Shown here: piece after piece, positions 12,301 to 64,000 of the stretch
Layout of the letters: each line of letters opens with the position of its first letter
Position numbering within the stretch: the stretch's first letter is position 1
From: Eublepharis macularius
Taxonomy: Eukaryota; Chordata; Lepidosauria; Squamata; Eublepharidae
NCBI RefSeq assembly: GCF_028583425.1
Contig: NC_072805.1
Location: 19,664,001 to 19,728,000 of the forward strand
Direction of reading: 5' to 3'
DNA: 64,000 bases
Made by a program: the position numbers and the translations under genes
The notes under the pieces: model-generated
Told to the model about the DNA's origin: nothing
What the model saw: only the letters and a program-made list of their open reading frames with translations
The model's database searches: none

Positions 12301-12426
12301 AATGCTGAAAATCAGAGCCAAGCTACAAGTGACACCTGACACAATGCTGAAAATCAGAGCCAAGCTACAAGTGATGCCTGACACAATGCTGAAAATCAGA
12401 GCCAAGTTACAAGTGACGCCTGATAC
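12301..12426 (+). repeat. Three tandem 42-bp units at a P1 end
   Basis: Units at 12301, 12343 and 12385. Each holds 14 bp of flank (AATGCTGAAAATCA) and 28 bp of the P1 terminal repeat. Confidence 0.9.
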
Positions 12427-12755
12427 AGGTTGGGCACTTGTCAGCTTCCCTCAAGTTTTGATGGGAAATGTAGGCATCCTGGTCTTACAGCTTGGCTCTC
12501 CATTTAATTGAAGCTTATAGAACCTCCCCCCCACACACACACACCCAGTAGAGAGGAAGGGAGGCGCCCGGCAAGTGCCCGACGCCTGCACTCCTCTCCC
12601 GACCGCATGTTCTCCCTCCCATAGACTGCCACTCTGTAAATTTCAATTAAATGGAGAGCCAAGCTGCAAGACCAGGACGTCTACGTTTCCCATCAAAACT
12701 TGAGGGAAGCTGACAAGTGTCCAACCTGTGTCAGGCGTCACTTGTGGCTTGGCTC
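12315..12755. mobile_element. P1 palindromic MITE (long member)
   Basis: About 440 bp, TCA at both sides (12312-12314, 12756-12758). The central part is bounded by CTCTCCATTTAATTG and its complement, so this may be a two-step palindrome like 3247-3677. Confidence 0.7.
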
Positions 12756-12953
12756 TCAGTGCAGCACTTGTGTCAGAGGTGGTTGGTCTCAGGCAGTGAC
12801 CCCCAAAGTGGCACCCATGGGCACCAAGGCATCCACTGATGATCTTCCAGGTGCTGAGTTCCTTCTCCCTCTAAGCACCTCCTCTTCAAAACAAAGAGCC
12901 AATCCTGGCTTTCCTCCATCTCACTAGAGCAGGAGGCTCATCATAAGAGCCCA

Positions 12954-16364: not shown

Positions 16365-19300
16365 CTAGAGGATGCTGGCGAGAAAGGGTCGAGAGAAGGT
16401 TAGCCTTCTCTGACTTTCGTTGGAAAAGCATTTTCTTTTTCCAGAAAGCCAGAGCAATGCGAGCTGTTGAAGTGACCCCCTGCCCCCAAAATAGGAATGT
16501 GGGAATTGGCAGTCCCTCTCCTCTGCTATCTGTAACAAGCTGGATTCCAGTTTTGATTGACAGCTAGCATCGGTGGATAAGAGCCACAACTGACACTGTC
16601 CTGCCAGAGGCTGCTACATACTGTGCCATGCATATGAATATACAAAAATTCAGCTTCACAGCCTGCTGGGGTAGGTGTGACTAGAACAGAATCCTGCACA
16701 AATGGGTAGGCAGTGTTGTCTCTATCCTACTTCCATCAGCTTTTGTATGAAGTTATAGGGGACTTGCATACTTGCAGGTTCATATGATGTACACATCTGG
16801 AAGATTAAACACGAGTCCAATGGCACCTTAAAGATTAACCAATGTAATTCAGTATAAGCTTTCATGAGTAAGAGTGCACTTCATCAGATGTAAGATCAAG
16901 CTGATTGCTCTGGATGAACACTCATCCCTTTTTTGGTCAAGCATATCTGCTCCTCTCCAAGGTCAGCCTTAGGAAAATGAGTTTTGTTGGTTTGCAGAAG
17001 CAGGATATGCACAGCACCGATTGGCTAGTGACTGCTTCATGATCTCATCCTTCTCCCCATATTTGGGGCAGTTTCAGCACTTTTCAAAAATGCATTGTGC
17101 TTCACAGGGCTTTTTTTCTGGGAAAAGAGGTGGTGGAAATCAGTGGGTTGCCCTTGGAGAAAATGGTCACATGGCTGGTGGCCCCGCCCCCTGATCTCCA
17201 GACAGAGGGGAGTTGAGATTGCCCTCCGCGCCGGCGCAGAGAGCAATCTCAACTCCCCTCTGTCTGGAGATCAGGGGGCGGGGCCACCAGCCATGTGACC
17301 ATTTTCAAGAGGTTCCGGAACTCCGTTCCACCATGTTCCCGCTGAAAAAAAGCCCTGGCGCTTTATGAAAACAAACTGCTGAATAAAAATGAATGTATAT
17401 AAAAGGTGTACATGGGCCTTTACAGCATGTTTTTAATGAGCCAGGGGGCTTCCCTGAAGTGTGGGGGAAGAGGCAAGACTGATGACTGAGTTAGCATTGA
17501 AATGTTCTCATGGGAGAAAAACATTTGCATGCACTCTTGGGTGTCCGGCTTAAGCGAAAATACGCATTCTGTAGACGCAACAAAAATTAAGCACAGGCAA
17601 AAGTTGCTCCTGTGTTTTCTCAGCAGTTAAAACAAATCCTTTTCACAGCTGTAAAACATGAAGCTGCCATATACTGAGTCAGACCATCCCTCCATTAAAG
17701 TTAGTATTGTCTACTCTGACGGGCAACAGTATTCCAGGGTTTCAGGTACGAGGTTTTCCCCATTACCTACTATTTGGTCCTTAATTAGAGATGTCAAGAA
17801 TTGAATCTGGGACCTTCTATAGCCAAGCAGATGCTCTATCACTGAGCCATGGCCCTTCCTCCTCTGCCACCTAAACTTTCAAAAGCTAGCTGATCAGAGG
17901 TGCTCTTTCAACTCCCTACCAGGGCTTTTTTTCAGCAGGAATGCGGTGGAACGGAGTTCCTGCACCTCTTGAAAATGGTCACATGGCCAGTGGCCCCGCC
18001 CCCTGATCTCCAGACAGAGGGGAGTTGAGATTGCCCCTCTGTCTGGAGATCCCCTCTGTCTGGAGATCAGGGGGCGGGGCCACCAGCCATGTGACCATTT
18101 TCGCCAAGGGCGATTTTAACTTTAAAAAACTCCCCCCTTGTTCTAGCTGACCCAAAGTGATGTCATTGTGCGGTCCTGAGTTCCACCACCTCTTTTCCCA
18201 GAAAAAAAGCCCTGCTCCCTACAGACCTCATTGCTACAGTTTTTTGTTCGCAGTTCAAGATTTCAGCTGGTGCCTACAGTTCGTAGAACTTTCCTGGAAC
18301 TTTTCAGAGCACAGTGTCTGGGGAAGACACTAGGAATCCAAGCTGGCTTGGTTCAGGGCTTGAGTACATGCTCATTTCTACCCCTCACATTTTTCTTTTG
18401 CAAATGCAGCCCCTAAGGGTTTTTTTTAAATCCAGGACGAGAGCAGCTTGGGAGGAGGGAGAGAGAGAAAGTTTAACTCTTCTTCCCCTGCTGATAGAAC
18501 ACGGGAGCAGATTCTAAAAGTTTCCCTCCCACTCCATGTTGTTTTACTGCTTGGTAAAACAACTTCTCTAATTAAGGACCAAATAGTAGGTAATGGGGAA
18601 GACCTCGTACCTGAAACCCTGGAATACTGGCGAAACCCTTGGCGAAAATGGTCACATGGCTGGTGGCCATGGCTCAGTGATAGAGCATCTGCTTGGCTAT
18701 AGATGGTCCCAGATTCAATTCTTGACTGCTTGCAAAAGAAGTCCTTTAAAATAAACAATATGGGTACAGGGGAATGTGGAGTTGAACCAAGCATAATGAA
18801 ACTACAGTCAAAAGGGAAATGATGGATTTTTAAGAAGATAACTGCATGAATACAGAATGAATAGAACCTTCAGATCTTGGGTTTTGTCAGAGAGTGGATC
18901 CATTCTGCTCTGTCAGAATTAGTCACTTTCAATATCCTGAATTGATCCTACATTCTCTCCTGGGCTTTCATGAGTGTGTGGGGAGAGGGCAGGTATTCCC
19001 ATACTGGAAACCTTAGACTGGTTAAGGTGAGACCCAGCACCTTACCCTCCATCCTCTGGAACAGACAAATTATTGCCCGTCCAAATTCTTTCATTAGTCT
19101 GAAGTGGATATCACATTACAGGAACAGAATTTACCTGCTTATCTTGCAACTTACCAGTCCAGGTTTTTTGGCCGGAGAAGTGTCTGGCTCTGATTCGTTT
19201 ACTAGAATTCCAGCGGGGAGAGAAATAGAATAGTTTAATTAAAAAGTGGTTCTTCTTGAATGAGCGTTAAATTAAAAGGATGGGATAAGCCAGCAAATTG

Positions 19301-24090: not shown

Positions 24091-27000
24091 TTTAGCCCTT
24101 CATCCCCACAAACAGGCTCAAGGCAGGGTACAATAAAATACTCAATGAGCATTTAAGATATATTAACATATATAAATAAGATTTAAAATACTAAAAACAT
24201 AAATACATAAATACCTAAAACAGCATATCAGATGACAGCCCCCTCACCAATCACATGCACTCAGTGTAACCTACCTCACAGGGTTGTTGTGAGGATAAAA
24301 TGGAGGAGAGGAGAATGATGTAAGCCACTTTGGGTCCCCATTGGGGAGGAAGGCTGGGTATGAATGAAGGTAAGTAAGTAAGTAGGTTGGTAGGTCAAAG
24401 GTAAAGGTCACTTTACCTTTTACCTATCTTGGGTTACATTACTGACCCATGGGGGAAAGTCACATCATGACGTTTTCTTGGTAGACTTTTTGTTATGGGG
24501 TGGTTTGCCATTGCCTTCCCCAGTCATCTACACTTTACCCCCAGGAAATGGGGTACTCATTTTACCGACCTCAGAAGGATGGAAGGCCGAGTCAACCTTG
24601 AGCCAAACTCAGGTTGTGAGCAGAGCTTGGGCTGCAGTACCGCAACGTACAACTCTGCACCACGGAGCTCCATTAAGTAAGTAAGTAAGTAAGTAAGTAA
24701 GTACCCTCTAAATAAATAAGCAAATAACTTCTGAAAAGTATCTGAGGTTATCTGAGCATCTGTTTTCCCTCAGAAGCTGCTGTCCTATGGACGTCTTTTG
24801 ATCTTTTTCTCTGCTCTGCTCATAATGGCTGGATAAAATGATGACGGCACTTACCTGTTGTTGTGATGACAACTCGAGATGTGTTTCCTGACTGGGTCAG
24901 GTTCCTGGATCTGCTCTCCACTTGGCACGTGTAGTTCCCTGAATCGCTCACAGCAGCCTTCTTTAGTGTGAGAGAAGCAAAGCCTCTTTCCCGATTCACC
25001 TCTATTCTGAGTGAGTCTCTCGAGCTTGTCAGCTCTGTTCCATTTCGGTACCATCTCACATCTGTGGCATTGGGATCATTGACTATCCGGAATCGACACT
25101 CAAGGGTGAGATTTGCCCCTTCTGGTTTGCTGATGTGTTCTGGAGTCTGATTCACCATCAAATCTTTAATCTCTGCCCAGGAAAAAAAAAAGTAATCTGT
25201 ACTTCCATTGAAGTGGAGTTCACTGCTAAATGTAGCTGGAGGTGAAGATGAAGGATCTATACTTTCAGAAGAAGTCCAGATTGCTACCCTAGGATTTTAT
25301 CACTTCAAAATGAGGTTGGATGTGTTTATTTATTTATTTGAGTGCTCTGGCATTTTTTTAAAAAAACACCATTGCCTCTGCACATTAGGGACATGGCTAG
25401 AAGTATCCCACCTAACCTGCCAGCTTTCTGCTAGCTAGGTGTTTTGACACAGGAAATTTTTTCAATGCAATTTTTTTTAAAAAGGTTTCTGCTATTGAAT
25501 TTACAAGGAATCCCTCCCTTTAATGGTGCTAGCTCTACTTAAAAGACACATTTACCAGCATGGTTTTAAATGTAATCAGAGTATTGATTTGAATGATCTG
25601 ACTGCTCTAATCCATGTGACAATAACCTTGAGGCTGGACTGTTGTAATACACTCTGCATGGGGCTGCCCTTGAAGACAATCTGGAAACTCCAGCTGGAAA
25701 CTCCAAAATGCTGTGGCTCATTTCCTATCTAACATTTGTCACAATTCACATATTCAATAAACACACTGACGGCTTATTTATTGATGGGTCCAATTCAAAA
25801 GCATTGTAGACAGCCTTGAGTACCTTGTATGAGAAAGTTTTAGGTTGGTGGTAGCCCTGTTGGTCTGTAATAGAAGAGCAAGATTCGAGTCCAGGAGCAT
25901 CTTAAAGACCCATATCTATTATGAGAAAGGTGGACTAAAAATATCTTAAGAAAGTCAGCAAAAACTCAGGCATCGCTAAAGGTTCTAGAAAACAAACAAA
26001 TTGTGCCTTTTTTTTTTGAAAAACTACAGAAAGGGCCTGGGTTTTAATAGAGGAAGAACAAACAAACCTGGAAGAAGAAACAGAGGAAGTGGCCAAAGGG
26101 CCACTTGGGCCAAATGTTACACCCAGGACTAGGGTTGCCAGCCTCCAGGTAGTGGCTGGAGATCTCTCAGAATTACAACTGGTCTCCAGGCCACAGAGAT
26201 CAGTTCACCTGGAGAAAATGGCTACTTTGGGAGGTGGACTCTATGGAATTATGCCACGCCAAGGTCCTTTCCTCCCCAAATCCCACTTTCTCCAGGTTTC
26301 TCCAGGTTTCACCCCCCAGATCTCCAGGAATTTCCCAACTTGGAGCTGGCAACCCTACCCAAGACCAAATGTTACACAGAATGACTACCAAAACCTGAAG
26401 CTTTGTGGTTGTTTGGAGAAGGCATGCAAAAGTACATTTACTATTCCACCAAGAGAAAAGAAGTTTGGGAAGGAGAGATGGAATGGGAAAATGAGGGGAA
26501 GAGAAGAATTAAGCACCCTTTCTTTTCTCTGCCACTTTTCCTTTCTAAATTGCCTCCTTCCAGAGCTGCTTTGTCTTGGAAGAAGGAGCCAGTGGGGTTT
26601 TATTACACATGCTGTGGGTAGTATGGAACTCCAGTACACAGCTTCTTTTTGAGGGTGCCATTACAGACATCCCGTACAAGTTGCTGGAAACAACTCTGAG
26701 CAGATTTTGAGTTTAATTTGAAGCGATTGAACAAAATGCTTGGAAACAGCAGAAATGGACCAATGGAAATCAGTCCACCAAAGCAACGGACAGTACTTTT
26801 CTTGCATCAGAATAAATATCTCCATTGATTTGTTATTGGAATATCTGTCGTACTTTTGAAAAATTGAAAAGGCGGCGTATTTCCGCTTAAGGTTCATATT
26901 TTGAAAGAATTGCATAGATCATTATTTCAGGATATGAGGATTCGCTGCAAATCGTTGGATAGTTACAAATCTCACAAAGGTCCACAAAACCTGCATCTTT

Positions 27001-30000
27001 GAGACAATTCAAAACTCCCTAAAAATACCTGAATACACATGAAGCTGCCTTATAGTGAATCGTATTATCAGTCCATCAAGGTCAATATTGTCTACTTGGA
27101 AGGCAGCAGCTCTCCAAGGACTCAGGGTCTCACCACATGAGACAAAATACATTCGAATCACACGGGTAATTCGAGTGTATTTTGTAACTCGAGTGTATTT
27201 GAGTGTAATTCGAGTGTAATTCAAGTGTATTTTGTCTTGTGTGGTTTCACGTCACCTTTTGCCAAATCTTTTAACTGGATTGAACCTGGGACCTTTTGTA
27301 GGCCAAAGCTGATGCTCTCCCTACCACTGAGCCAAAACTGCTTCCAAAAAAAGACGTAATTTTTGAGAAAAGATTTTACCATCAACAGTTAGTTGTGTTC
27401 CATTACTGCAAAAATCACCAACTTTGTGAACAGAAACTTTACATGTATAGAATCCAGAATCTGCTACCACAGTCTTGCTCAGACTCAAATTACTAGATCG
27501 TAAGGTTGCATTTGTCATTATTGTCATCAGGTCTTTGTTAGTTAATGCAATCTTGTTTCCATCCTTAAACCACTGAATAGACCAAAATGTAACGTTTCCT
27601 TGGAATGAACATTCCATATGCAGTGTAGAACCTTCCACCACTTTCAGAGCGGCCGGCGTCTGAATTACTGAAAGACGCAGAGCTGTAAAAACACAATCAA
27701 GGACAGCAAATTATTTCTAAATGATCCCTTCACACACACTTGAAACATGCATATAGCCTCTAATTTAGGAATAAAGCTCAGAAAAAGAGAACTAGAACTC
27801 CCGTGTTATGTTGTACGCACACAGTCTCTACCTCTATCACTGGGAATGTTCAAAAAACATTCTCAGTCATGGGAAACAGACTTCCTGTGTACAGTTTGTA
27901 TGCATATGCGCACGGTATCCACACAAGGGGAACATATACAGGGGGAACCAGTGTACTCAGTCAGAGAGAAGGGCCAGTGACCTCACTTTGATCCTCCTTC
28001 TACATGCATTGACCTTGTAATAATCGCTAGTACTGCTGAACAAACTACAAAGAATTCCAACAGGAGGATTGATTAGGAAAGGCAATCAAATGGCCAGTTG
28101 CAAAATATGTTACTATAATACTACCTCTGTGAGTCTCTTGCCTTGAAAACCCCAGCAAGGGTCTCGATAAGTCAGCTGTAACTTGATGGCACTTTCCATC
28201 ATCTATTGATAGCATGCTGGGCTGCTGAGACAGAGCAGGGGACAAAGTCCCAGGGCTGAGATCACTAGGGCCCCTTAAGCCAGGCCAGTTAGGTAATTTA
28301 TTTTTGTATACTGCTTGGATTATCTCTGAATGGCATGTGTGCGGGTGGTGTCCCCAGAGGGAATCTCTGTCTGGGTGGGCACGGCCAGTTTTCAGTGACC
28401 CTGATGATGTAGCCACAGGTGGATTACCAAATACAATTCCAACCTTTGCAACTCAAGCCAAATATCATACAGCACAGGATATGTTAGTGCTGGAGCTCCT
28501 TCCAAGGATAAAATGTTGGTTGGGCAATTTTTTTTAAAGACAACACAGTAGAAGTTTATAAATTATGTGCGGCATAAGGAAAAGGAAAGGTAAACAGAAG
28601 ATCTGTTACTATCCCTGCACAGTTATTCCAAATTACATATGCTTCATGAGTGGAAACAGGAGTAGCAACTAGGTCAACCCCCGGACATTCATGCATACAA
28701 ATATCTGCAACAAGCCCCTTGTGTTCTAGCGTTCACAAATAGGCATCTTCTTGTGATTTGGTCTCTCTGCAGACTGGGGTAGTCTTGGAGAAGCTGCACA
28801 CTGGGGGTGCTCCAACCCCCCCAAATCCTGCCTCCCCTCTCCAGAGGGGGCAGCTGACTTAGTAGGAACAGCGATTCAAACCTGCCCTGCCTGTGGTTCA
28901 GGCAGCCAGCATGTCGGCCATTCACTCCTGTCCCATCCGAGGCTCAGGCAGCCAGGTTTTGGTAGTAGCAGTGGCTCCCACCCATCTTACCCAGGGAGAG
29001 GCTCCCCCCTTGTTTGGACTCTGGTGGCAGGGGGTAGACATGGCAGGAGCGGCTGTGGTTCTGTGGGCACCTCCTGGATTCTTGTCCAGGGTCCCAGAAT
29101 CGCTAAGACCACCCCGGTTGCAGACATTCCATTCTGTTCACATGAACCAGAAATCTACCAACCACATGTACCAGGAGCACATGGGTCTCCATGTTGCAGT
29201 CACCATCTTGTATACAAAACTGAACGCTCACTTGAGCCATCTTGCTTACCCCCAACAGACTAGCCTGAACATTTTTTATCTGAGCTTATAAGTGACACAT
29301 GAAATCTTTTTTATTCATTGCTTTATACATTTTTAAAAGCACATTTTAAAGTACGAACCTGCTCTAGAGAGGATGGAGGACGCGTTCATGCTGCTGTTGC
29401 GGGAGGCTGGTTGATTGACACCGTTCACAGACCTCACCTGCCGCATACTTATAGAAGAATTTTCTCCTAGGGCTATCAATTAATTGAAACAATCTCAGTC
29501 AATCTATATCCATTTTATTTATGAAGCTATAAAGCTTCCATATAATTACATTTGAACAAAACAGTTCTTCTGAAAAGAATATTCTACGTTTGGTTTTACA
29601 CGCAGCAGGCGCCATCTTACAAAAAACAACCCCACATTATGGAGGAAAGGAAGCTTAAAATTTTTTGACTAAATAAATATGATGACCCAATAAACTAAGG
29701 GATACAGAGAGCACTTTTTTATGGGAACGTGGAACAGGGTTGCCAACTCCAGGTTGGGAAATTCCTGGAGATTTGGGGGTGGAGCCTGGAGGAAGCAGGA
29801 TGCTGGGAGGGGCGGGACCTCAGAGGTGTATAATGCCATACAGCCTACCCTTCAAAGCAGCCACTTCCCCCTGGGCAACTGATCTCTGTAGTCTGGAGAT
29901 TAATTGTAATGCCAAGAGATCTCCAGGTCCCACCTAGAGGCTGGCAACCCTGACATGCAAGAACACCCGTCACATTCAGCCAAAGAGTACGGTGAGGCAA

Positions 30001-33000
30001 AAGGGAAAACAGAACATCTGTCCTCATTTCTTAGGACTAGAATGTCTCCTCTGACCTAGAGCAAAGTTCTAAAAGATACGACACAGGGCAGGATTTTTCT
30101 GTCCTCTTCCCCTGCCCTTCTTTCTTAGTTCATTCTGTCTCTTCTCCATTTCTGCTGGAACAATTTTTTAAAGAAATTTGTCTCTTTGGGCTGTAGAAAG
30201 CTTAGCTTTTAACCAGGAGGGCTGGAGGTGATTAGGAACACAAAATGCCACAGGGATAGAGCAGAGTCTCATTTTCCCACTGTCCACATGTCATAGCCTG
30301 TATTACTTATGTTTATTGTCTTAATGAGTTTTTTTAATCCATTGATTAATGTGTCTCTGTAAGCCACTTAACATGCAGCAGATAAACTATTAAAGGTTCG
30401 TACTAATGAGATGAAGATCGCATGTCTTGTTCCATCCACAACTTCATAGCTTCAGTTTACCTTGGAGCCAAGCAGGGAAGGGAAGGCAACGTTTAATCCT
30501 TCAACCTCCCATCAGTTTTACTATTCAAAACAGGACTCCCTACTTTGTTATTAGCACTTTAGGGTGGGAGGGAGGATGTATGTTTTTTAAGGTCACAATT
30601 TCTCCTTTGAATACTTCCATAGCAATGAGCTCCCTTTTGAATAGCAAACTTGAGTGGAGGTTGAAGGGTTAAACGTCACTCCCTTCCTTGCACAGCCCCA
30701 CAGCAAATTGAGGCTGCAGGAGCTTCCAGACTGCATTTTATGGACAGACACCTGCTCTTCGTCTCATATCTGCATGAGCCCTATGTCTGTGTTCCTTACT
30801 GTTTCAGTGTGGCCAGTGGGGACAAAGTAGGGCCCAGATATACAGAAACTGTAGTAGAATTTGTAAAAGAAATTGGAACAGAAACTGTATTCTGGTTTAT
30901 TCTTCATTTCTGCAAAGACTCCAATAGCAAAATATCGCAGAAATATTTGATTTGACCATACGTTGACCCATCTTGGAATACAATTATTCTTTAACATTAA
31001 CATCTACTGAATTCAGAGGTGTCTTACCTGCATTTGAAATGTTTTGGGAAACTTATAGAACCTCATTAAAATGCTTTTCATATAGAGGGCTAGATATAGA
31101 TGTCTAGAAGAATTTCAGAGAAGTGGGTAGACTGATTATATGCAATGTTTTATGTGTGTTTTTAAATTGCATATATTTCTGTGTTTTCAATATTACGTAT
31201 TTATACATTTTGGAAAGAGAAAAGGAAACTTAAGATACAGCAAGCGGACCTGAAAGGAAAAGGAACTGGGAGGGCTCAAGCTAGGATGGATGACTGTGCT
31301 GTTTTGTTAACGAAAGTTATGCTTTCACTTAAAGCAGCTCAACATTTCCAAGAAGTTCTTCATGAGTAACACAACGTAGCCCTGGACCTTGGCAACCATG
31401 TCCTCAAGAAAGGAGCAGCTGAATGTGTTATTCATATATTGTCAAAGGCTTTCACGGCCAGAGAATGATGGTTGTTGTGGATTTCCCGGGCTGTATTGCC
31501 GTGGTCTTGGCATTGTAGTTCGATATATATATCGAACACCTCTACGGGGAGGAAACATTCCAGCAGACCCGGAGATTGGAAACACTTCGGAACAAGAAAG
31601 CACATCTACTCCGTTCTTTAACCTTTCTCCTACGCTGCAGGGACACGAGAAGATATAAATTACCTGCTAACATCTTCTCCATAGTTTGACACTGAGAGAT
31701 CTCTGTCTTTTGGTGCTACACCTCTGAAGATGCCAGTCGCAGCTGCTGGTGAAACGTCAGGAACTACAATGCCAAGACCTTGGCGATGCAGCCCGGAAAA
31801 TACACAACAACCATGTGTTATTCATGCTTCCATGTCATTCACAGGATAGGTGGAGGGTCAGCTCCTTATCCCAAAAGAAGCATATTGGTAAGCGGGTCTG
31901 TATTCTCCTTACCTCCCCTAGCTCCATCACTGCAGCCATTTTTCTCCCAGCCAAGACCCCATCCCAGAAGCAGGGACTGGTTAGGAACAAAAGGGATTCA
32001 AGTAAAAGAGGGCAGCCAAGTAGAGACCACTTCTCTCACCCATAAGCCGCTTTCCTTGCAATGCTTATGTGCTGTCACCTCCGGGCTTTAGATGAGAATG
32101 GCACAGACGTGAATGAACCAAAGGAGTCGGTGCGTCCGTGCTTCTTCTCATAGTGTCTTTTACAGTTGATAGCTAACTATGTGGGCATCTTTTTGAGTTT
32201 TCCTAATCAAAGCTGTAACAGAGCTTCTTTTATTATAGTTCTAACCAGGGCTTTTTTTTCTGGGAAAAGAGGCGGTGGAACTCAGTGGATTGCCAGCACA
32301 GGGGGCAACTCCTGGTAAGAGGTAGTGCCCCTGGTACCACATGCGCAAAGTGCGCACGTCCCCGGGGCCGTGCAATGACGTCACTTTGGGTCAGTTGAAA
32401 CAAGGGAGGAGTTTTTTAAAGTTTAAATCAACCTTGGCGAAAATGATCACATGTCCTGTGGCCCCACCCCCCTGATCTCCAGACAGAGGGGAGTTGAGAT
32501 CGCCCTCCACACCAGCGGCGCGGAGGGGGCGGGGCCACAGGCCATGTGACAATTTTCAAGAGGTGCCAGAACTCCGTTCCACCGCGTTTCAGCTGAAAAA
32601 AAGCCCTGGTTCTAACAATGCAGTCCTAAGGACACTAAGAGCCCCAACGAATAGGCCTAGGATTCTGAGCAGGCTTGTTTAGGATTGCTCGCTAGATAAC
32701 CTCTGAGCATTTTGGCCTTTCTTTGACTCTCTCTTTCAGCTTCCTTTCAACTACTATCATTTGAGAAGTTTCCTGTCTTGATGTTTAAATATAATTGCAT
32801 TGGATTTCCTGAGCAAATTGCCGCTTATCTACATAATGCTGAACTCTGCTGAATCTACATCTGCTGAATTCTAGTATGTTAAATCATCACAGTCCCTGCT
32901 TCTGATCGGTTTGCCAGTGCTTGCATCTCATCCCAGGCTCTGGGCTTCACTCTGCTGTAAGCCCCATGGTCCCCTCCCCCTTAATTGGTTGCAAAATTAA

Positions 33001-36000
33001 ATGTTCCAAGGCATGGCCATTTGTTATATCTAAAATTCTTGCCTCTTTGACCAGAACTTAATTTGCCCCATCTATAGGAGGGTCGTTGAAATCACCCAGT
33101 GTTACAACACTTCCTTCTCTGGTTATAATTCCAGAAAGGTAGCTGGGTTAGTCTGTGAGTGGAAATACACATTGTGAAATAGCTGGTGATACTCAAGTGC
33201 AGGATTTTATGTGTGATTTTATGCGCCCCGTGGCGCAGAATGGTAAGCTGCAGTACTGCTGTCCAAGCTCTGCTCACGACCTGAGTTTGATCCTGGCGGA
33301 AGCCGGGTTCAAGTAGCCAGCTCAAGGTTGACTCAGCCTTCCATACCATAAACATCATGATGCGACATCCCCCCATGGGTCAGTAATGACTCCCTGCTTG
33401 AACAGGGGACCTTTACCTTTTTACCCCCATTCATATGCAGGCTGTTCTTGCTCGGCACATGTGCATGCCGCTTTCATGGGAGCTCCCTTTGTGTGATTGC
33501 ACCTTTGAACTGCAAATTTGCAATTCAAAGTGTGAGAAAGTGTCAAGATCTGCATTTCAATGAACGGAGGTGGGAGGTGGGGGAAACTGGGATACTTTTA
33601 GCAGTTGAGGAGGAACTGAAATGAAACGTGTGAATGTATTCATGTGGAGGAAATTGAAGTGTGACTGTGCGGAGCAAGCGCATGGGAAGTTGGAGGGGGG
33701 GACATATGAAATGAGGTTCACTTGAGCATCCCTAGGTACTTAGTAATGTGCATTTCCACCCTGTAGCAGCAAAATAAAACAGGAATTGGATGGCATCTCA
33801 TCTGACTTCTTTGGTTCATTCAATTCTGCACCATTCTCATCTAAAGCCCGGAATCTTAGAGCCGGGCTACAAGTGACGAATTACACTTGATGTATTGTCG
33901 AAGGCTTTCACGGCCGGAGAACGATGGTTGTTGTGGGTTTTCCGGGCTGTATTGCTGTGGTCTTGGCATTGTAGTTCCTGATGTTTCGCCAGCAGCTGTG
34001 GCTGGCATCTTCAGAGGTGTAGCACCAAAAGAAAGGGATCTCTCAGTGTCACAGCTGAGAGATCTCTGTCTTTTGGTGCTACACCTCTGAAGATGCCAGC
34101 CACAGCTGCTGGCGGAACGTCAGGAACTACAATGCCAAGACCACAGCAATACAGCCCGGAAAACCCACAACAACCATCGAATTACACTTGCCTGGCAAGT
34201 GAACAGACTCAAAGCCAAGCTACAAGTGACGAAATACACTTGCCTGGCAAGTGAACAGACTCGCGAGTATTCCTCCCTGTTCACTTGCCCTCCACTTGAT
34301 CCACGTAGTGATCAAGTGGAGCGCAAGTGGAGGGCAAGTGAACAGAAAGGAATACACATGAGTCTGTTCACTTGCCAGGCAAGTGTCATTCGTCACTTGT
34401 AGCTTGGCCCTGACAAATTATCTTGAAGTGAATGGCAAGTGAACAGGGAGGAATACACATGAATGTGTTCACTCGCCAGGCAAGTGTAATTCATCACTTG
34501 TAGCTTGGCTCTCAGTTTCCGTAGGATTGCACTGTTAGAACTATGATAAAAGAAGCTCTGTTACAGCTTTGATCAGGAAAACTCAAAAAGAATCAGAGTC
34601 AGATCAACTGTAAAAGACAATATGAGAAAAAGCACGGATGCACTGACTCCTTTGGTTCATTCACGTCTGTGCCATTCTCATCTAAAGCTCGGAGGTGACA
34701 GCACATAACAAGAAAAGCTGCTTACGGGTGAAGAAAGTGGTCTCTACTTTGCTGCCCTCTTTTACTTGAATCCCTTTAGTTTCTAACTGGTCCCTGCTTC
34801 TGGGATGGGGCCTTGGCTGGGAGAAAAACGGTTGCAGCGATGGAGCAAGAGGAGGCAAGGTGGGTTCAGATCTGCTTACCAGAACTCTTCTTTTGGGATA
34901 AGGCGCTGCCCCCCCCCCCATACAAATAACAAATGCAGCTGCCCCTTTCTTGAGGACATGGTTGCACAAGTCTGGGACTACACTGTGTTAGTCATGAAGA
35001 ACTTCTTGGAAATTTTGAGCTGCTTTAAGTGAAAGCATAACTTTCGTTAACAAAACAGCACAGTCATCCATCCTAGCTTGAGCCCTCCCAGTTCCTTTTC
35101 CTTTCAGGTCCACTTGTTGTATCTTGAGTTTCTGGTCCTTACTTGCTGTATCTGTGAATTTCCTGCTCCCTTTTCAAAATGTATAAATATGCAACATTGA
35201 AAATGCAGCAACGTGTGCAATTTACAAAACCTACAAAACATGGTATATAATAATCAATATGTCTATTTCTCTGAAATTCTTCTATATCACTCTAACCCAC
35301 AATGCTTTTTATGATGTACAGGGGGAAGGAGGGGAGGCAAAAAGCACAGCATCTAGACCCTCTCTTCTCCATTTCCCACTTCTGGAGGGAGAGGGTCCGA
35401 GAGTCCCTTCCTTCAGCTCAAGGACTTGAGCCTTGTAAACTATCTTTGAGTCAGCCATGACCAACTTTACAGTCACCACCAACAAGCTTCCAGACTCACT
35501 TATCAGATCATTTGGCTCTTCTTCAATGTGACATTTTCGATCCCTCAAATCCTCTATCATGAATAGGAATGGGGCATTTGCACTGTGCCTGCAGAAGTTG
35601 TAAATACCTCTGGCATTCCCATGTTAATCACCATGTCCTCAGGGAGCAGCTTTGTTCCTAAGAGCCAGCAACTGTCTATCCTTAGCAAGCCATGGCTCCA
35701 GATCCATAAATATATTGAAAGGGCTAGTGAGCTATAGGATTTTCTATATTTCAAAGGGTCATCGCCTTTAAACTTGTCATTTGAGCCAAAGGAATCCAGT
35801 CCAGTGGTGCCCTCTTAGTGATGGTGTGCTCGTTCAGTGGAGACATTAACACACCCAGCTCTTTCCCATGTCCCAAAGGCAGCCTTGAATTGGTTTTCCA
35901 ACAAAGTTACCCTTGCAACTTAATGCTGACTTGTAAACAGACTGTTTGGTTAAGTAACAGCTTCTTTTTGTATCATATTAGGATATTTTATGTCTGCTAG

Positions 36001-46579: not shown

Positions 46580-46945
46580 GGAATTGCAAGATTCGAGTCC
46601 AGTAGCACGTTAAAGACCAACAAGATACAAGCTTTTGAAAATCAAGGCTACCTTCGTCAGATACTAATTTTCTGCATTTCCTACACCTCTGCATTTCTTC
46701 CTCTGCCCTAATCAAGTACATTTTGCATTTTACCTTTGCATTCTGACCCCTTTCTTTGCAACACCCTTCCCACCTTCTGGCTGGGGTATAAAGGCTCAGG
46801 GATTCCCATCCCTACTCATACCTGAAGAAGAGAGCGTTGACTCCTGAAAGTTTACACCTCGGGAAATCTCATTGGTCTTTAAGGTGCTACTGGATTCGAA
46901 TCTTGCTCTTCCACTGCAGACCAACATGGCTACCCACCTGAAACT
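46580..46945. mobile_element. R1 inverted pair with a TATA-bearing centre
   Basis: A minus unit (46585-46670, CTGACGA) faces a plus unit (46808-46945, CCTGAAGAAG...CTGAAAG and TCTTTAAGGTGCTACTGGAT). Between them is GGGGTATAAAGGCTCAGG, a promoter-like stretch 5' of the plus unit. Confidence 0.65.
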
Positions 46946-48355: not shown

Positions 48356-48409
48356 CTTACTTTACTTTTGAGATTATTATTATTCTCTATTTTTTGTCTT
48401 ATTCTCTAA

Positions 48410-48611
48410 GAGCCAAGCTACAAGTGACGCCTGACACAGGTTGGACACTTGTCAGCTTCCCTCAAGTTTTGATGGGAAATGTAGGCATCCTAGTCTTGCA
48501 GCTGTAATGGAGAGCCAAGCTGTAAAACCAGGACGCCTACATTTCCCATCTAAACTTGAGGTAGGCTGACAAGTGTCCAACCTGTGTAAGGCGTCACTTG
48601 TAGCTTGGCTC
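48410..48611. mobile_element. P1 MITE
   Basis: TAA on both sides (48407-48409, 48612-48614), the classical PIF/Harbinger target form. It lies 180 bp downstream of the second signal exon. Confidence 0.85.
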
Positions 48612-48789
48612 TAAGACAAAGACAAAGTTCATGCTGACCCTGTTACCAATTTAACTGGAGTCACCAGTGATTGGAACTGAGAACTTCTGCAAACCAAGCC
48701 GATACTCTCTCCATACAGGATGCCGTTGTGGCTGAACAAAGATTATACAGTGCATTAAAAAGAAGCAAGAGAAAGTGGAGCTCACTGAC

Positions 48790-48956: not shown

Positions 48957-49232
48957 CTCCATGTCCCCCCACACATGTACACACAACAGGAAATTTCAGG
49001 GAATGTTCCATTTCTACCCACCCCCGACAATTTCCAGAGAAAATTCACAAAATGTCAATTCGATGACAGAAATGGATCTCACTTCTCCTTTCTTGGGAGG
49101 GGAAAAAAATGATAACTTCAGAGTAGTATCAGTCTTAGCAGAAGTAAAACCAGGATTCGGTCTTAGAAAGATCAGGGACCCAAAATATAGGACGTTGCTA
49201 TATCTTGAAAAGAGCAACTGGGTACTGTTAAA

Positions 49233-50185
49233 TCAAAAAGAGTCCAGTAGCACCTTTAAGACTAACCAATTTTATTGTAGCATAAGCTTTCGAGAATCAA
49301 GTTCTCTTCGTCAGATGCATGATACAAACTGGTCAAATACAGAAGAGGAGGGTGGAGAGGGGAGAGAAGGGGACATATATCAGAAGGGGACAGGATACAA
49401 TTAGCGGGGAGGCAACCAAAACATTTCTTTGCTAGTAAACGTAGATATCTCCTTTTGGTGTGGAGTCAGTTTGCCGTGTTAGTTTGCAGCAGTAAAAGCA
49501 TCCAATTCCTATGTAGTATAAGCCTTCGATAACCACAGCTCTCCCTGCCAGATGCATCTGACAAAGGGAACTGTGGTCCCCGAAAGCCCACACCAGGCGC
49601 CACTGGGCTCCCCCAGACCACGCCGCTGTAAAGGAAATCTGTTACCTGTGATAACGTGATAACCATTCATAGTCTCTATTCAGTCCCAGCTTGACAGAGT
49701 CAAATTTGCATATGAATTCCAATTCACATTATCACAGGTAACAGATTTCCTTTACAGCGGCGTGGTCTGGGGGAGCCCAGTGGCGCCTGGTGTGGGCTTT
49801 CGGGGACCACAGTTCTCTTTGTCAGATGCATCCGGCAGGGAGAGCTGTGGTTATCGAAGGCTTATACTACATAGGAATTGGATGCTTTTACTGCTGCAAA
49901 CTAACACGGCAAACTGACTCTACACCAAAAGGAGATATTTACGTTTACTAGCAAAGGAATGTTTTGGTTGCCTCCCCGCTAATTGCATCCTGTCCCCTTC
50001 TGATATATGTCCCCTTCTCTCTCCCCTATCTCCCCTCCTCTTCTGTATTTGACCAGTTTGGATCATGCATCTGACGAAGAGAACTTGATTCTCGAAAGCT
50101 TATGCTACAATAAAATTGGTTAGTCTTAAAGGTGCTACTGGACTCTTTTTGATTTTGCTACTACAGACTAACATGGCTAACTCCT
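49233..50185. mobile_element. R1 head-to-head inverted dimer, 953 bp
   Basis: Perfect 15-bp duplication CTGGGTACTGTTAAA (49218-49232, 50186-50200). Arms of about 420 bp are nearly identical (for example AGCGGGGAGGCAACCAAAAC and complement) round a centre near 49690. Outer units show CTGACGA-A-GAGAA...TTCTC-GAAAGC. The left end is shorter than the right by the terminal GATTTTGCTACTACAGACTA block. Confidence 0.85.
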
Positions 50186-50501
50186 CTGGGTACTGTTAAA
50201 GGAAGCAAAGAAAGAGCTTGATGAAGATGGATAAAAGATTTGAAGAACATTCCCAAATGATGTTTCACCTGTTGTGATAATTGCGGCTACCATGACAAAG
50301 AGACAGTTATTCTCACCTGTAATTTGCAAATGGAAATAAAGGTATGCTTAACATCCCTGATTTCATAACATGAACTATTATCTAAACTTCCCTCCTTCCA
50401 TTGCTACACATTATTGAATTTTCTGATCTGCTGTCTGCATTCATTTATGCGGCAGTGGACTTTTCCCGCAGTGATTCAGAAGCTAAGACAGTTGTTGTTC
50501 T

Positions 50502-50864
50502 ATATATTGTTGAAGGCTTTCACGGCCGGAGAACGATGGTTGTTGTGGATTTTCTGGGCTGTATTGCTGTGGTCTTGGCATTGTAGTTCCTGACGGTTCA
50601 CCAGCAGCTGTGACTGGCATCTTCAGAGGTGTAGCACCGAAAGACATTCCATACCCTGGGAAACTCTTAAAGGATGACTCAGCCCAACCCCACCTTCCTG
50701 AGTAGATACAAATTACCTGCCAACATCTTTTCCACACTGTGACACTGAGAGATCTCTGTCTTTCGGTGCTACACCTCTGAAGATGCCAATCACAGCTGCT
50801 GGCGAAACATCAGGAACTATATTGCCAAGACCACGGTGATACAGCCCGGAAAATCCACAACAAC
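50502..50864. mobile_element. R2 inverted dimer
   Basis: Perfect 13-bp duplication CAGTTGTTGTTCT (50489-50501, 50865-50877). Right arm longer, with GACTCAGCCCAACCCCACC between the arms. Confidence 0.85.
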
Positions 50865-50910
50865 CAGTTGTTGTTCTGTCACTTAAAGATATTCTGGTCA
50901 TGTTGGAAAA

Positions 50911-53539: not shown

Positions 53540-53736
53540 ATCCAGAGGCGTTAGCAGTGTTAGTCTGTAGTAGCAAAATGGCAAAGAGTCCAGTAGCACC
53601 TTTAAGACTAACCAACTTTACAGTAGCATAAGCTTTCGAGAACCACAGCTGTCTTCATCAGATTTGTTTGTGGTTCTCGAAAGCTTCTGCTACAGTAAAG
53701 TTGGTTAGTCTTAAAGGTGCTACTGGACTCTTTGCA
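53540..53736. mobile_element. R1 head-to-head inverted dimer, compact
   Basis: Perfect 12-bp duplication AAAGAAAAAAAG (53528-53539, 53737-53748). The minus unit has intact CTGATGA and GAAAGC-TTAT-GCTA. Confidence 0.8.
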
Positions 53737-58594: not shown

Positions 58595-58751
58595 TGCTTG
58601 TTGTGGGTTTTCCGGGCTGTATTGCCGTGGTCTTGGCATTGTAGTTCCTGACGTTTCGCCAGCAGCTGTGGCTGGCATCTTCAGAGGTGTAGCACCAAAA
58701 GACAGAGATCTCTCAGTGTCGTTCTCCGGCCATGAAAGCCTTCGACAATAC
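58595..58751. mobile_element. R2 unit with an inverted end
   Basis: 12-bp duplication AAAAAGGATTTA (58583-58594, 58752-58763). The missing left end (GGAGAAC block) sits inverted at the right end. Confidence 0.8.
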
Positions 58752-58923
58752 AAAAAGGATTTACTTCTGAGTAGATCTGCTTGGAGCATCTTTTTTATGA
58801 ATCGTTTCTGTTAACAGTTTTAGTCCATAATATAAGGAACTATTCTTCAAAAACATCCATTAGCACAAGGCTGCCTCTTATGTAAGTGAGGACTGTGTCC
58901 AATCAGAAAATAGAGAACTCTGA

Positions 58924-61185: not shown

Positions 61186-63459
61186 CTATCCAATAAAGCA
61201 AGAGAGATCCAATTCGTTATTAAGCCCTTGAGGAGCCAAGGAATTTAATTTAAAGATCCATTGAGCCTCCAACTGTAATAGTTTTTTAGAGCAGTCTGAT
61301 ATACAAGGGTCTGAAACAACTTCTAATACCGAGATTTTAAAATCTTTAAAATCCTTATGCTTCAACCAGTAATGAGATACTAGAGGAGCCTCCTCCACTC
61401 TGTTCCTGACCCTGGAGATATGTTCCTGAATTCTTATTTTTAATGGGCGTGTGGTGCTTCCCACATAGTACATCCGGCAACTACATCTAATCACATATAC
61501 CACGTTCGTGGTCTTACAAGTGGTGAAATTTTTCTGATAAGATCTCCGTCCTTCCAACAAGCTGTTTAACTTTACCATCATGCAACAAACGTTGCATTCT
61601 CCACATGGGAAGTGCCCCTGAGGCATAGTCCGCGTTTGATTAATGACTTTGAACTCCGAGCGCATCAATATATCTTTAAGTGATCGCGTGCGGCGGTAAC
61701 CGATCTCTGGGGGCTCTTCGCAGCCCGGTATTTCGGCTACTAGATGCCAATGCTTCCTTATCAATTTACAAATTGGGGTTGATAAATTGGTGTATTCCAT
61801 AGCCCATTTTAAAGAACCGACTAGGGAGCGGTTCTTGGGTCTTAAAAGATCTGCTCTAGGCGTGGACATTGCCCTAGAGCACGCCGATTCAATAGCTGGC
61901 CACGGGTAGCCCCTATTCACAAACGCCGCACCAAGCTCTGTGCCGCATACACTAAAGTCTCTATAGTTGGTAGAGTTCCTTTTTAGTCTGAGGAACTGCC
62001 CCATGGGAATATTTCTCTTTAAATGTGTAGGGTGGAAGGATGTATAGTGTAGGTATGAGCATCTGTCTGTGACTTTTTTAAAAGGTCGCACGCCTAAGAG
62101 ACCTTGGCTACGTCTGTAAATAACCACATTCAGATAGTTAATGCTAACCCCACTTCCTTGCCAGGTAAACTTTATGTCTGCATTCAATGAATTCATCCAA
62201 TGGCCAAATGGCTCTGCTATATCTGATGATTTTAGGATCATGATGACATCATCAATGTAGCGTTTGAATAGCACTATCTGATCCAAATATGGATTGTTGT
62301 CATCGTGAAAGATCCATTGGTTTTCAATCTCTGACATAAAAAGGTTGGCGATACTGGGGGCGGCAGCGCACCCCATCACCACCCCTTTGATTTGATAAAA
62401 AGAACAGTCAGCGAACTTAAAGTAATTGCGCTCCAGGACAATATCCAAAATGTTAAGGAGGAAAGGTGTAGAGGGAGATTGGGACTCCCTAGACAAAAGT
62501 GCCTTCTCTACTACTGCCCACGCGCCCTCGTGGGGAATAGAAGTGTATAACGAACTCACGTCTAAAGTCATCAAATAAGATGTTTGTGGAATCTCCAGGG
62601 ACTCTATCAGGGATATCAGAGACATCGTATCCTTGAGGTAGCTTTTTGTTTTAACCACCAGCGGTTGCAAGAAGGAATCTAAGAATACTGATAACGGCTC
62701 CAAAACAGAGTTTGAGCCGGAGATGATCGGGCGGCCGGGGGGTGGAAGTCCCCCCTTATGTATTTTTGGGAGGGTATAGAAGGCAGGAGTCCTAGGCTGG
62801 TCATTAATTAGTGCATCATGTGTCTTCTTGTCTATTTCGTTGGTCATTAGCCCTTCGTCCAGGACGATTTTTATCACTCGTTTTATCTGGGCTAAAGGAT
62901 TGAGTGGAATAGATCTATAGTCTGTCTCCACACCTAATTGTCTTTCCACCTCTTGCACATAATGATGCACATCTTGTATAACTATACCACCTCCCTTATC
63001 TGCTGCTTTTATAATGATGTTTGGATCGTTTCTTAAAGCGGAAAGGGCCACCCATTCCTCTTTGTTAAGATTGTATCTTTTAAAATGTCGTTCTCCTTCT
63101 AATTTTCTGATGTCCCTCAGTACCACTTTCTCAAAAGCCTCGATCATGGGATCTGTGATCGAGGGACAAAATGAGGACTTGAATCTAAGCCCACAAGGAA
63201 CGGGGGCGGGAGGGCTGTTGCCAAAAAGTTTTTTAAGTTTATTAAGGCGAACAAGTTTGTAGACATCTAATCTGGTATTAAATGCATCATACTTGGGGGT
63301 GGGCACAAAGCCCAGCCCCTTATTAAGTACCGATCTCTCTAGGGCGCTTAGCTCTCTTGAGGACAAATTAAAAACTAAGTCCTCTGTTTTGGAGGCCGTT
63401 TGAGGCGTCCTGGAGCCTTGCCTAAAAAATGGCCACGGGGCTGGAAAGGGACATTTCAA
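61186..63459 (-). CDS. Penelope-like reverse transcriptase with GIY-YIG endonuclease
   Basis: Copies element RNA into DNA at a nick made by its own endonuclease. Starting at codon 63459 there are 757 residues. N-terminal Penelope block GLGFVPTPKYDAFNTRLDVY; RT motif A TLDVSSLYTSIPHEG; motif B GVVMGCAAAPSIANLFMSEI; motif C RYIDDVIMIL with the YIDD aspartates; then INYLNVVIYR. Near the end a cysteine cluster CGECNVCC and the GIY-YIG nuclease (VVYVIRCSC, YYVGSTTRPLKIRIQEH). All catalytic motifs are visible. The frame opens at TTG with a stop shortly upstream, and the first in-frame ATG is about 100 residues in, past the conserved N-terminal block. Entry from the overlapping first frame or non-AUG initiation is therefore inferred. 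Confidence 0.88.
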   Translation of the reverse strand: MKCPFPAPWPFFRQGSRTPQTASKTEDLVFNLSSRELSALERSVLNKGLGFVPTPKYDAFNTRLDVYKLVRLNKLKKLFGNSPPAPVPCGLRFKSSFCPSITDPMIEAFEKVVLRDIRKLEGERHFKRYNLNKEEWVALSALRNDPNIIIKAADKGGGIVIQDVHHYVQEVERQLGVETDYRSIPLNPLAQIKRVIKIVLDEGLMTNEIDKKTHDALINDQPRTPAFYTLPKIHKGGLPPPGRPIISGSNSVLEPLSVFLDSFLQPLVVKTKSYLKDTMSLISLIESLEIPQTSYLMTLDVSSLYTSIPHEGAWAVVEKALLSRESQSPSTPFLLNILDIVLERNYFKFADCSFYQIKGVVMGCAAAPSIANLFMSEIENQWIFHDDNNPYLDQIVLFKRYIDDVIMILKSSDIAEPFGHWMNSLNADIKFTWQGSGVSINYLNVVIYRRSQGLLGVRPFKKVTDRCSYLHYTSFHPTHLKRNIPMGQFLRLKRNSTNYRDFSVCGTELGAAFVNRGYPWPAIESACSRAMSTPRADLLRPKNRSLVGSLKWAMEYTNLSTPICKLIRKHWHLVAEIPGCEEPPEIGYRRTRSLKDILMRSEFKVINQTRTMPQGHFPCGECNVCCMMVKLNSLLEGRRSYQKNFTTCKTTNVVYVIRCSCRMYYVGSTTRPLKIRIQEHISRVRNRVEEAPLVSHYWLKHKDFKDFKISVLEVVSDPCISDCSKKLLQLEAQWIFKLNSLAPQGLNNELDLSCFIG

Positions 63460-63908
63460 TTCCGCAAAGACCTAGTGCTAGAGCCCTCATCTCCAGAGGT
63501 GTCTGTTTCGGATGGTTCCGTAGTTTCGAACTCAGAACCTGACTGTAAATTTCTAGCCCAGGAGACCTTTTTGCGGGGTTTAATATTATCTCCATCCTTC
63601 CACTGATATATCCTACCTGATGTATAGTCCCTCCTGTCCCTGTTGAACTTTTTCAATTTCAGCTCCTTAAGTTTTGCCTCACTCTCCCTTATACTGCGAT
63701 CTAATTCAGACTTCTTAGCCTCAAACTCCTCAAGGGTTAATTTAGCCTTAAGTAGATCCTTGGCTTTAGCAATTTCCAAAGACAATTTTTCAACTTCTGC
63801 ATTAGAGGTCTTAATCAGAAGAAGCATTAAGTCAAATGAGCATTTATTCAATATAGCCGCCCACCGTGTTTTAAAGTCTTCGTCATCCCTGAACATACCA
63901 GGTGGCAT
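63456..63908 (-). CDS. Penelope-like element ORF1, coiled-coil protein
   Basis: About 150 residues from the ATG at 63908. A helical, charged middle (KLSLEIAKAKDLLKAK, LDRSIRESEAKLKELKLKK) looks like a coiled coil, followed by a basic stretch and an acidic serine/threonine-rich end (ETTEPSETDTSGDEGSS). It may bind the element RNA; function is inferred. Its stop overlaps the start region of the second frame, which lies one base back. Confidence 0.7.
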   Translation of the reverse strand: MPPGMFRDDEDFKTRWAAILNKCSFDLMLLLIKTSNAEVEKLSLEIAKAKDLLKAKLTLEEFEAKKSELDRSIRESEAKLKELKLKKFNRDRRDYTSGRIYQWKDGDNIKPRKKVSWARNLQSGSEFETTEPSETDTSGDEGSSTRSLRN

Positions 63909-64000
63909 ACCACCCCCGATGATATTCAACCTCTATGTAAAGCCTTTAGGAGAACTCATTCACAGCTATGGAATTGGAGGCCATCAATATGAAGATGACA

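Follow-up and report, generated by a model that had tools for sequence, protein, structure and literature searches.

Results

A palindromic insertion within one target-site duplication

The window, by which we mean the whole 64-kb stretch of Eublepharis macularius DNA that was analysed, contains a 953-bp palindrome (49233–50185, hereafter 49k) that exactly fills the span between two copies of CTGGGTACTGTTAAA, one on its left (49218–49232) and one on its right (50186–50200). The two copies form an exact direct repeat (15/15 identical), both adjoin the insert, and they are the only two across the 64-kb window. We compared this repeat with two flank-pair nulls, one of 300 random flank pairs in the window with a 99th percentile score of 7, and one of 400 pairs with wider slack, a 99th percentile score of 8 and one outlier at 19. 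On the scale of both nulls the 49k site scores 15, which bears out the original prediction of a palindrome bracketed by a 15-bp target-site duplication (TSD). The true duplication may be 11–15 bp long because the first CTGG can come from the element's own 3′ end. With one TSD around both arms, the claim that the whole palindrome represents one integration event is also supported.

The inverted match runs between 49230–49659 and 49724–50155, leaving a 64-nt loop between the arms, and it comprises a 304-nt stretch of 97% identity overlapped by an outer one of 151 nt at 93%. When arm is aligned with arm, there are 11 substitutions and one 2-nt gap in ~430 bases. The arms had been described as almost identical and facing each other; they are indeed inverted and ~97% alike, but their ends are unequal. 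On the inner side, the left arm (49233–49725, minus strand) contains an ORF end (49660–49725) that is missing from the right arm (49724–50185, plus strand). On the outer side, the right arm has a 30-nt 3′ tail (50156–50185, plus strand), recognized by the alignment, the unit HMM and the direct tail score, which the left arm lacks. The unit HMM puts the 3′ end of the right arm at position 127 and that of the left arm at position 93, and the left arm, tail-less by the direct tail score, has its proximal RT start directed outward and its ORF end directed inward.

Long palindromes are prone to artefacts, so an assembly or fold-back artefact, or else two successive insertions, has to be weighed here. 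Either is very improbable, since both arms lie within a single TSD, they are set apart by 11 base differences, one 2-nt gap and unlike ends, and 20 of the 29 comparable pairs described below have exact end repeats of 9–15 bp.

Each arm also contains an older inverted pLTR piece found by self-comparison (49522–49587 in the left arm and 49796–49861 in the right), with a diverged direct pLTR after it whose end is tail-like, and the source element would therefore already have had this fossil pair. Many further inverted repeats of ~50–170 nt in the window (3243–3681, 12398–12756, 17150–18111, 48402–48619 and others) are perhaps of foldback or MITE type; a small inverted repeat of similar appearance to these interrupts the PLE arm at L034, elsewhere in the genome. 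Probable host exons encode a DRC7 C-terminal domain (7917–8606, plus strand) and immunoglobulin domains (24820–25296 and 27321–27710, minus strand).

Identity of the element

Its sequence places the element called R1 among the Penelope-like elements (PLEs). Read on the minus strand, the left arm gives in its inner part ELEFICKFDSVKLGLNRDYEWLSRYHR followed by a stop (49642–49725, in left arm and loop). A search with this peptide matched a single protein, P0121 (493 aa, 85% identity, E 2.3e-7), whose C-terminus has nearly the same residues and whose domains are RVT_1 and GIY-YIG. The ORF remnant at 49k comprises only 27 residues and the stop, and this copy has no intact ORF. In the same genome, the sister copy L016a (L016 1853–4901) has two 1174-nt arms at 98%, and in each arm an ORF with GIY-YIG above cut-off ends in nearly the same peptide. 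We assign R1 to the PLEs because of the P0121 match (RVT_1, GIY-YIG) together with the GIY-YIG ORFs in the L016a arms, which between them supply the RT and GIY-YIG of a PLE. The pLTR copies with a short TSD, inverted or tandem in PLEs, are present here in inverted form, and so is the optional 30–40 bp 3′ tail set by two RT start sites, here 30 nt and on the right arm only, with start sites mapped in vitro for PAc only. The label R1 is also that of an rDNA LINE; the element at 49k is not that LINE, as the ORF end and the GIY-YIG sister copy place the protein with GIY-YIG PLEs. The rDNA LINE R1, which we take to be a different element, shares only its label with the PLE at 49k.

Both arms hold a hammerhead-like core, CTGANGA..GAAA, as a candidate ribozyme motif (pattern matches at 49288–49314, minus strand, and 50071–50097, plus strand). 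This pattern has 11 matches in the window versus 3.0 expected, and 9 of the 11 are within PLE units. An Rfam scan of the window gave no match at the gathering score and no hammerhead, and its weak miRNA-precursor matches we ascribe to the palindrome. PLE pattern scans of a viral contig collection and a genome contig collection gave 0 matches each. Another PLE lies at 61186–63932 (minus strand) as two adjoining ORFs with RT (RVT_1), whose best relatives are in Anolis, Eublepharis and amphibians; a YYVGSTTRPL stretch in these ORFs resembles GIY-YIG by eye, and Pfam gave no GIY-YIG match.

In bdelloid rotifer PLEs, inverted pLTRs come with TSDs of 8–10 bp, one of the pLTRs can have a 31-bp tail, and head-to-head is the most frequent arrangement (PMC3846280), and a curation guide mentions inverted pLTRs and 3′ extensions (PMC8969392). 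The Penelope/Poseidon PLEs of anole and bdelloid resemble 49k in having an ORF with RT and GIY-YIG, head-to-head pLTR copies, a short TSD and an optional 30–40 bp tail, and a hammerhead is described for the anole PAc element (PMC11167929). Inverted head-to-head PLE copies with TSDs and an optional tail are already described, and 49k is ordinary in kind. What goes beyond this is the comparison among 29 pairs of two PLE families.

Sister pairs within the window

The window contains nine head-to-head pairs from two PLE families, R1 and Poseidon, each with one tailed arm (weakly in 7k). Pairs were recognized by a unit in minus orientation with one in plus orientation next after it, and the head-to-head order is therefore partly built into the sample. 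The unit model (HMM) found four R1 pairs beyond 49k, and the printed PAc RNA, used as query, led to four Poseidon pairs, with the tail score applied to the arms of both families.

Among the R1 pairs, 53k (53540–53736) has its tail on the left arm and a 12-bp TSD. The tail of 9k (9171–9388) is also on the left arm, and close to its ends lies an exact direct repeat of 9 bp, at a distance of 10 nt on the left side; the unit model alone runs into the tail in the right arm of 9k, and the direct tail score does not. An old R1-type pair, 46k (46580–46940), has its tail on the right arm and no TSD was found at its ends. In the R1-type pair 7k (7716–7845), the right arm is tail-less and the left arm is only a tail, a weak match (E 0.072, below the inclusion threshold; tail score p 0.004), and a microsatellite at the ends obscures the TSD. 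The Poseidon pair 50k (50502–50864), the neighbour of 49k, has its tail on the left arm and the TSD CAGTTGTTGTTCT (50489–50501 and 50865–50877), while 31k (31433–31816) and 34k (33889–34180) each have the tail on the left arm and a 13-bp TSD. The fourth Poseidon pair, 58k (58595–58753), is by appearance a twin-primed copy with a tail-less left arm, a right arm consisting of the tail only and a 12-bp TSD. Exact direct repeats of 9–15 bp occur at the ends of 7 of the 9 window pairs (15 at 49k, 13 at 31k, 34k and 50k, 12 at 53k and 58k, and 9 at 9k). For three window singles (16k, 19k and 25k), the unit model found no partner in the window.

The 31k insertion is flanked by one copy of an inverted segmental duplication of ~250 bp (31303–31945 and 34822–35054). 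The other copy, at 34822–35054, is without the insert and forms a paralogous empty site with one target copy, next to a small deletion. At 31531–31646, within 31k, an ORF-start piece from beyond the tail is joined directly to a pLTR, like a partial tandem.

One tailed arm in nearly every resolved pair

The genome sample came from the animal's own genome (2.24 Gb), in which 40 of 3177 candidates were scored. We resolved 29 pairs, 9 in the window and 20 elsewhere in the genome; the latter comprise 13 from the scored candidates (L009, L010, L013, L016a, L021, L022a, L027, L029, L030, L031, L032, L033 and L034) and 7 bystander pairs (L012, three in L016, L018 and two in L022). All arms in the 29 pairs were scored alike for the tail, and this score replaces the automatic unit-model classes. 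The tally leaves out the pairs L015 and L020, in each of which an arm is interrupted, the long arms of L011, L014, L017, L018, L019, L023, L024, L025 and L028 (partner or ends not found), and weaker single units in L013, L016, L017, L022, L026 and L027, including plus-then-minus neighbours in L027. A further 12 of the 40 long-arm places from the genome sample also stand outside the tally.

Exactly one arm is tailed in 27 of the 29 pairs, strongly in 25 and by a short or weak tail piece in 7k and L013 (18 nt in L013). One pair has no tail on either arm (L018 4642–4785), and one is ambiguous (L016 8690–8845), with a right tail and a weak left match, both arms being called tailed by the unit model. 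If arms were independent with a tail chance of 0.5, at least 27 of the 28 unambiguous pairs would be one-tailed with P ~1e-7; the 40 long arms from the genome sample, window excluded, divide into 18 with and 22 without a tail. In the excerpted open-licence literature searched, we found neither this one-tail rule nor twin priming stated for PLEs.

At their ends, 20/29 pairs have exact direct repeats 9 bp or longer (9–15 bp), those of L016b (11) and L034 (12) having been read by eye from the sequence. Elsewhere the TSD is 11/12 in L032, short in L016 8690–8845, L022b and L027, weak in 7k and L018, and absent in 46k; none was seen in the L012 pair, and one L022 pair, at the edge of its stretch, falls outside the TSD assessment. 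Monomers with a TSD were resolved at L012 (12 bp, 17-nt filler) and L026 (15 bp), both tail-less. The resolved insertions are thus 29 pairs and 2 monomers, and since the three window singles and many places lie outside this count, we give no ratio. Taken together, the sister copies suggest that inverted double insertion is a regular habit of the family. At L016 8904–9373, a Poseidon pair with a 13-bp TSD is nested in an R1 pair, within its right arm; the TSD of this R1 pair is 11 bp.

Arm lengths and start sites

The tail-less arm reaches further 5′ in 12 pairs (49k, L010, L013, L022a, L029, L030, L033, 7k, 31k, 50k, 58k and L012), with seven R1 pairs among the 18 compared counted as such once the L016b cross-hit is discounted. 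A rule that the tail-less arm is always longer fails in 53k, 9k, 34k (by eye), L009, L021, L027, L031, L032 and L034. Arm length does not follow the tail, because the tailed arm is longer in 8 of the 18 R1 pairs compared and slightly so in 34k. Relative to described PLEs, what differs here is that nearly every resolved pair is one-tailed and that the tail-less arm is often longer, neither of which we found stated in the excerpted text of PMC11167929 and PMC3846280; the latter, the bdelloid study, says there only that one of the inverted pLTRs may optionally have a tail.

Purified PAc (Poseidon) protein of the anole cuts and extends both target strands in vitro and starts at two adjacent internal sites, one at 111–118 and a second next to it, the stretch between the two being the tail (PMC11167929). 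The Poseidon arm ends in the window (n = 8) lie at PAc ORF 81–83 (four) and 114–119 (four), which is at or beside the in vitro RT start of the anole enzyme. L021 is an exception, its tail-less arm starting 35 nt further upstream than the usual proximal site. The arms of 58k span model positions 2–105 (tail-less) and 106–139 (tailed), so that the two abut at the proximal start, and the copies 58k and L013 have the look of a single RNA used by two primers.

These two copies resemble classic L1 twin priming, or "dual priming", which yields inverted pieces with an internal deletion and, like the model for PLEs considered below, has both cut strands priming on element RNA with a TSD around the inverted pieces (PMC2837659). 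Two non-overlapping inverted pieces in one TSD are found at 58k and L013, whereas at 49k the overlap is almost full. Unlike L1 pieces, the PLE pieces usually overlap and give a palindrome, and internal start sites take the place of poly(A) annealing.

Inner junctions differ among the R1 pairs 9k, 46k, 49k and 53k and the long-armed pairs elsewhere, and clear TSDs differ too. The only common junction, at the palindrome CAGATGCATCTG, is that of the short hairpins L016b and L022b. These comparisons speak against the preformed-dimer route, one of two named in the original prediction, in which an inverted dimer locus is transcribed and the palindromic RNA is inserted by one-sided priming. One TSD and a single-end tail would be expected from such a dimer also, the older nested inverted piece could have been copied along in the arms, and L016b and L022b do have their junction in common. 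Nevertheless, the differing inner junctions and lengths of the long-armed pairs, and a far end that repeatedly stops near the proximal start rather than as random 5′ truncation would have it, make a preformed dimer quite improbable. Taken as a sign of a common template, arm similarity gives a mixed picture: Poseidon arm pairs rank 2 of 6 pairings, the arms of a pair being no more alike than arms from different loci; R1 arm pairs rank 1 of 24, though the 46k arms are not nearest neighbours.

Discussion

The 49k copy is probably one 5′-truncated PLE insertion made by two-sided target-primed reverse transcription. The copy shows a single TSD around the whole, PLE identity, arms facing head to head, a tail at just one of its two 3′ ends, and unequal inner ends, and we consider two-sided priming the best explanation. 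The PLE endonuclease would cut both target strands ~11–15 nt apart, and each cut 3′ end would prime cDNA synthesis inside the element RNA, in place. The right 3′ end would use the distal start, including the tail, and the left 3′ end the proximal start, excluding it. The two cDNAs, templated by one RNA molecule or by two, would then run toward the RNA 5′ end, stop at different places and join their 3′ ends through 2–3 nt of homology (TC/TCA at 49724–49726). Target-primed retrotransposition and a twin-priming-type origin, both foreseen in the original prediction, are thus supported, but its assertion that the palindrome was not made in place is probably wrong, as the unequal arm ends point to two cDNAs started from two target strands.

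Self-priming, in which a cDNA folds at its 3′ end and copies itself into the second arm, is the published PLE proposal, put forward by the authors of the bdelloid study as a hypothesis from palindromes at inverted junctions (PMC3846280). At 49k, base pairing would be possible between the loop end TTCAC and a GTGA of the left arm, the short pairs L016b and L022b meet at the palindrome noted above, and self-priming may still account for the nearly perfect hairpins 9k, 34k, 53k, L016b and L022b. At 49k, however, each arm holds private sequence (the ORF end on the left, the tail on the right), so that neither copies the other. The same pattern recurs in 11 further pairs, in 7k and L013 with a short tail piece only, and because each arm has sequence that the other is without, a snap-back origin of either arm from the other is excluded in these 12 pairs. 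Self-priming should, in addition, extend the second arm into copied flanking DNA. For 49k we therefore regard self-priming as unlikely and favour two-sided priming.

From the 27 of 29 one-tailed pairs, we infer a division of the two start sites between the strands, one for each. More tentatively, and with somewhat less than even confidence, we suggest that two-sided insertion is the norm for PLEs: an enzyme acting as a dimer would assign both start sites of the same RNA, one to either cut strand, and the cDNA 3′ ends would anneal with the aid of the pLTR-start palindrome, finishing without ordinary second-strand synthesis. Set against two-sided priming with divided start sites are L018 4642–4785 without a tail, L016 8690–8845 with possibly two tails, the shifted start in L021, the existence of monomers (L012, L026), and the minus-then-plus selection of pairs.

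How PLEs complete insertion is an unsolved question. If insertion is normally two-sided, one would expect it to produce inverted copies, and the one-tail rule would be its mark. The one-tail rule, which argues against self-priming as a general route, extends over two families, and together with Poseidon arm ends at or beside the start sites, it would make genomic copies a readout of the mechanism.
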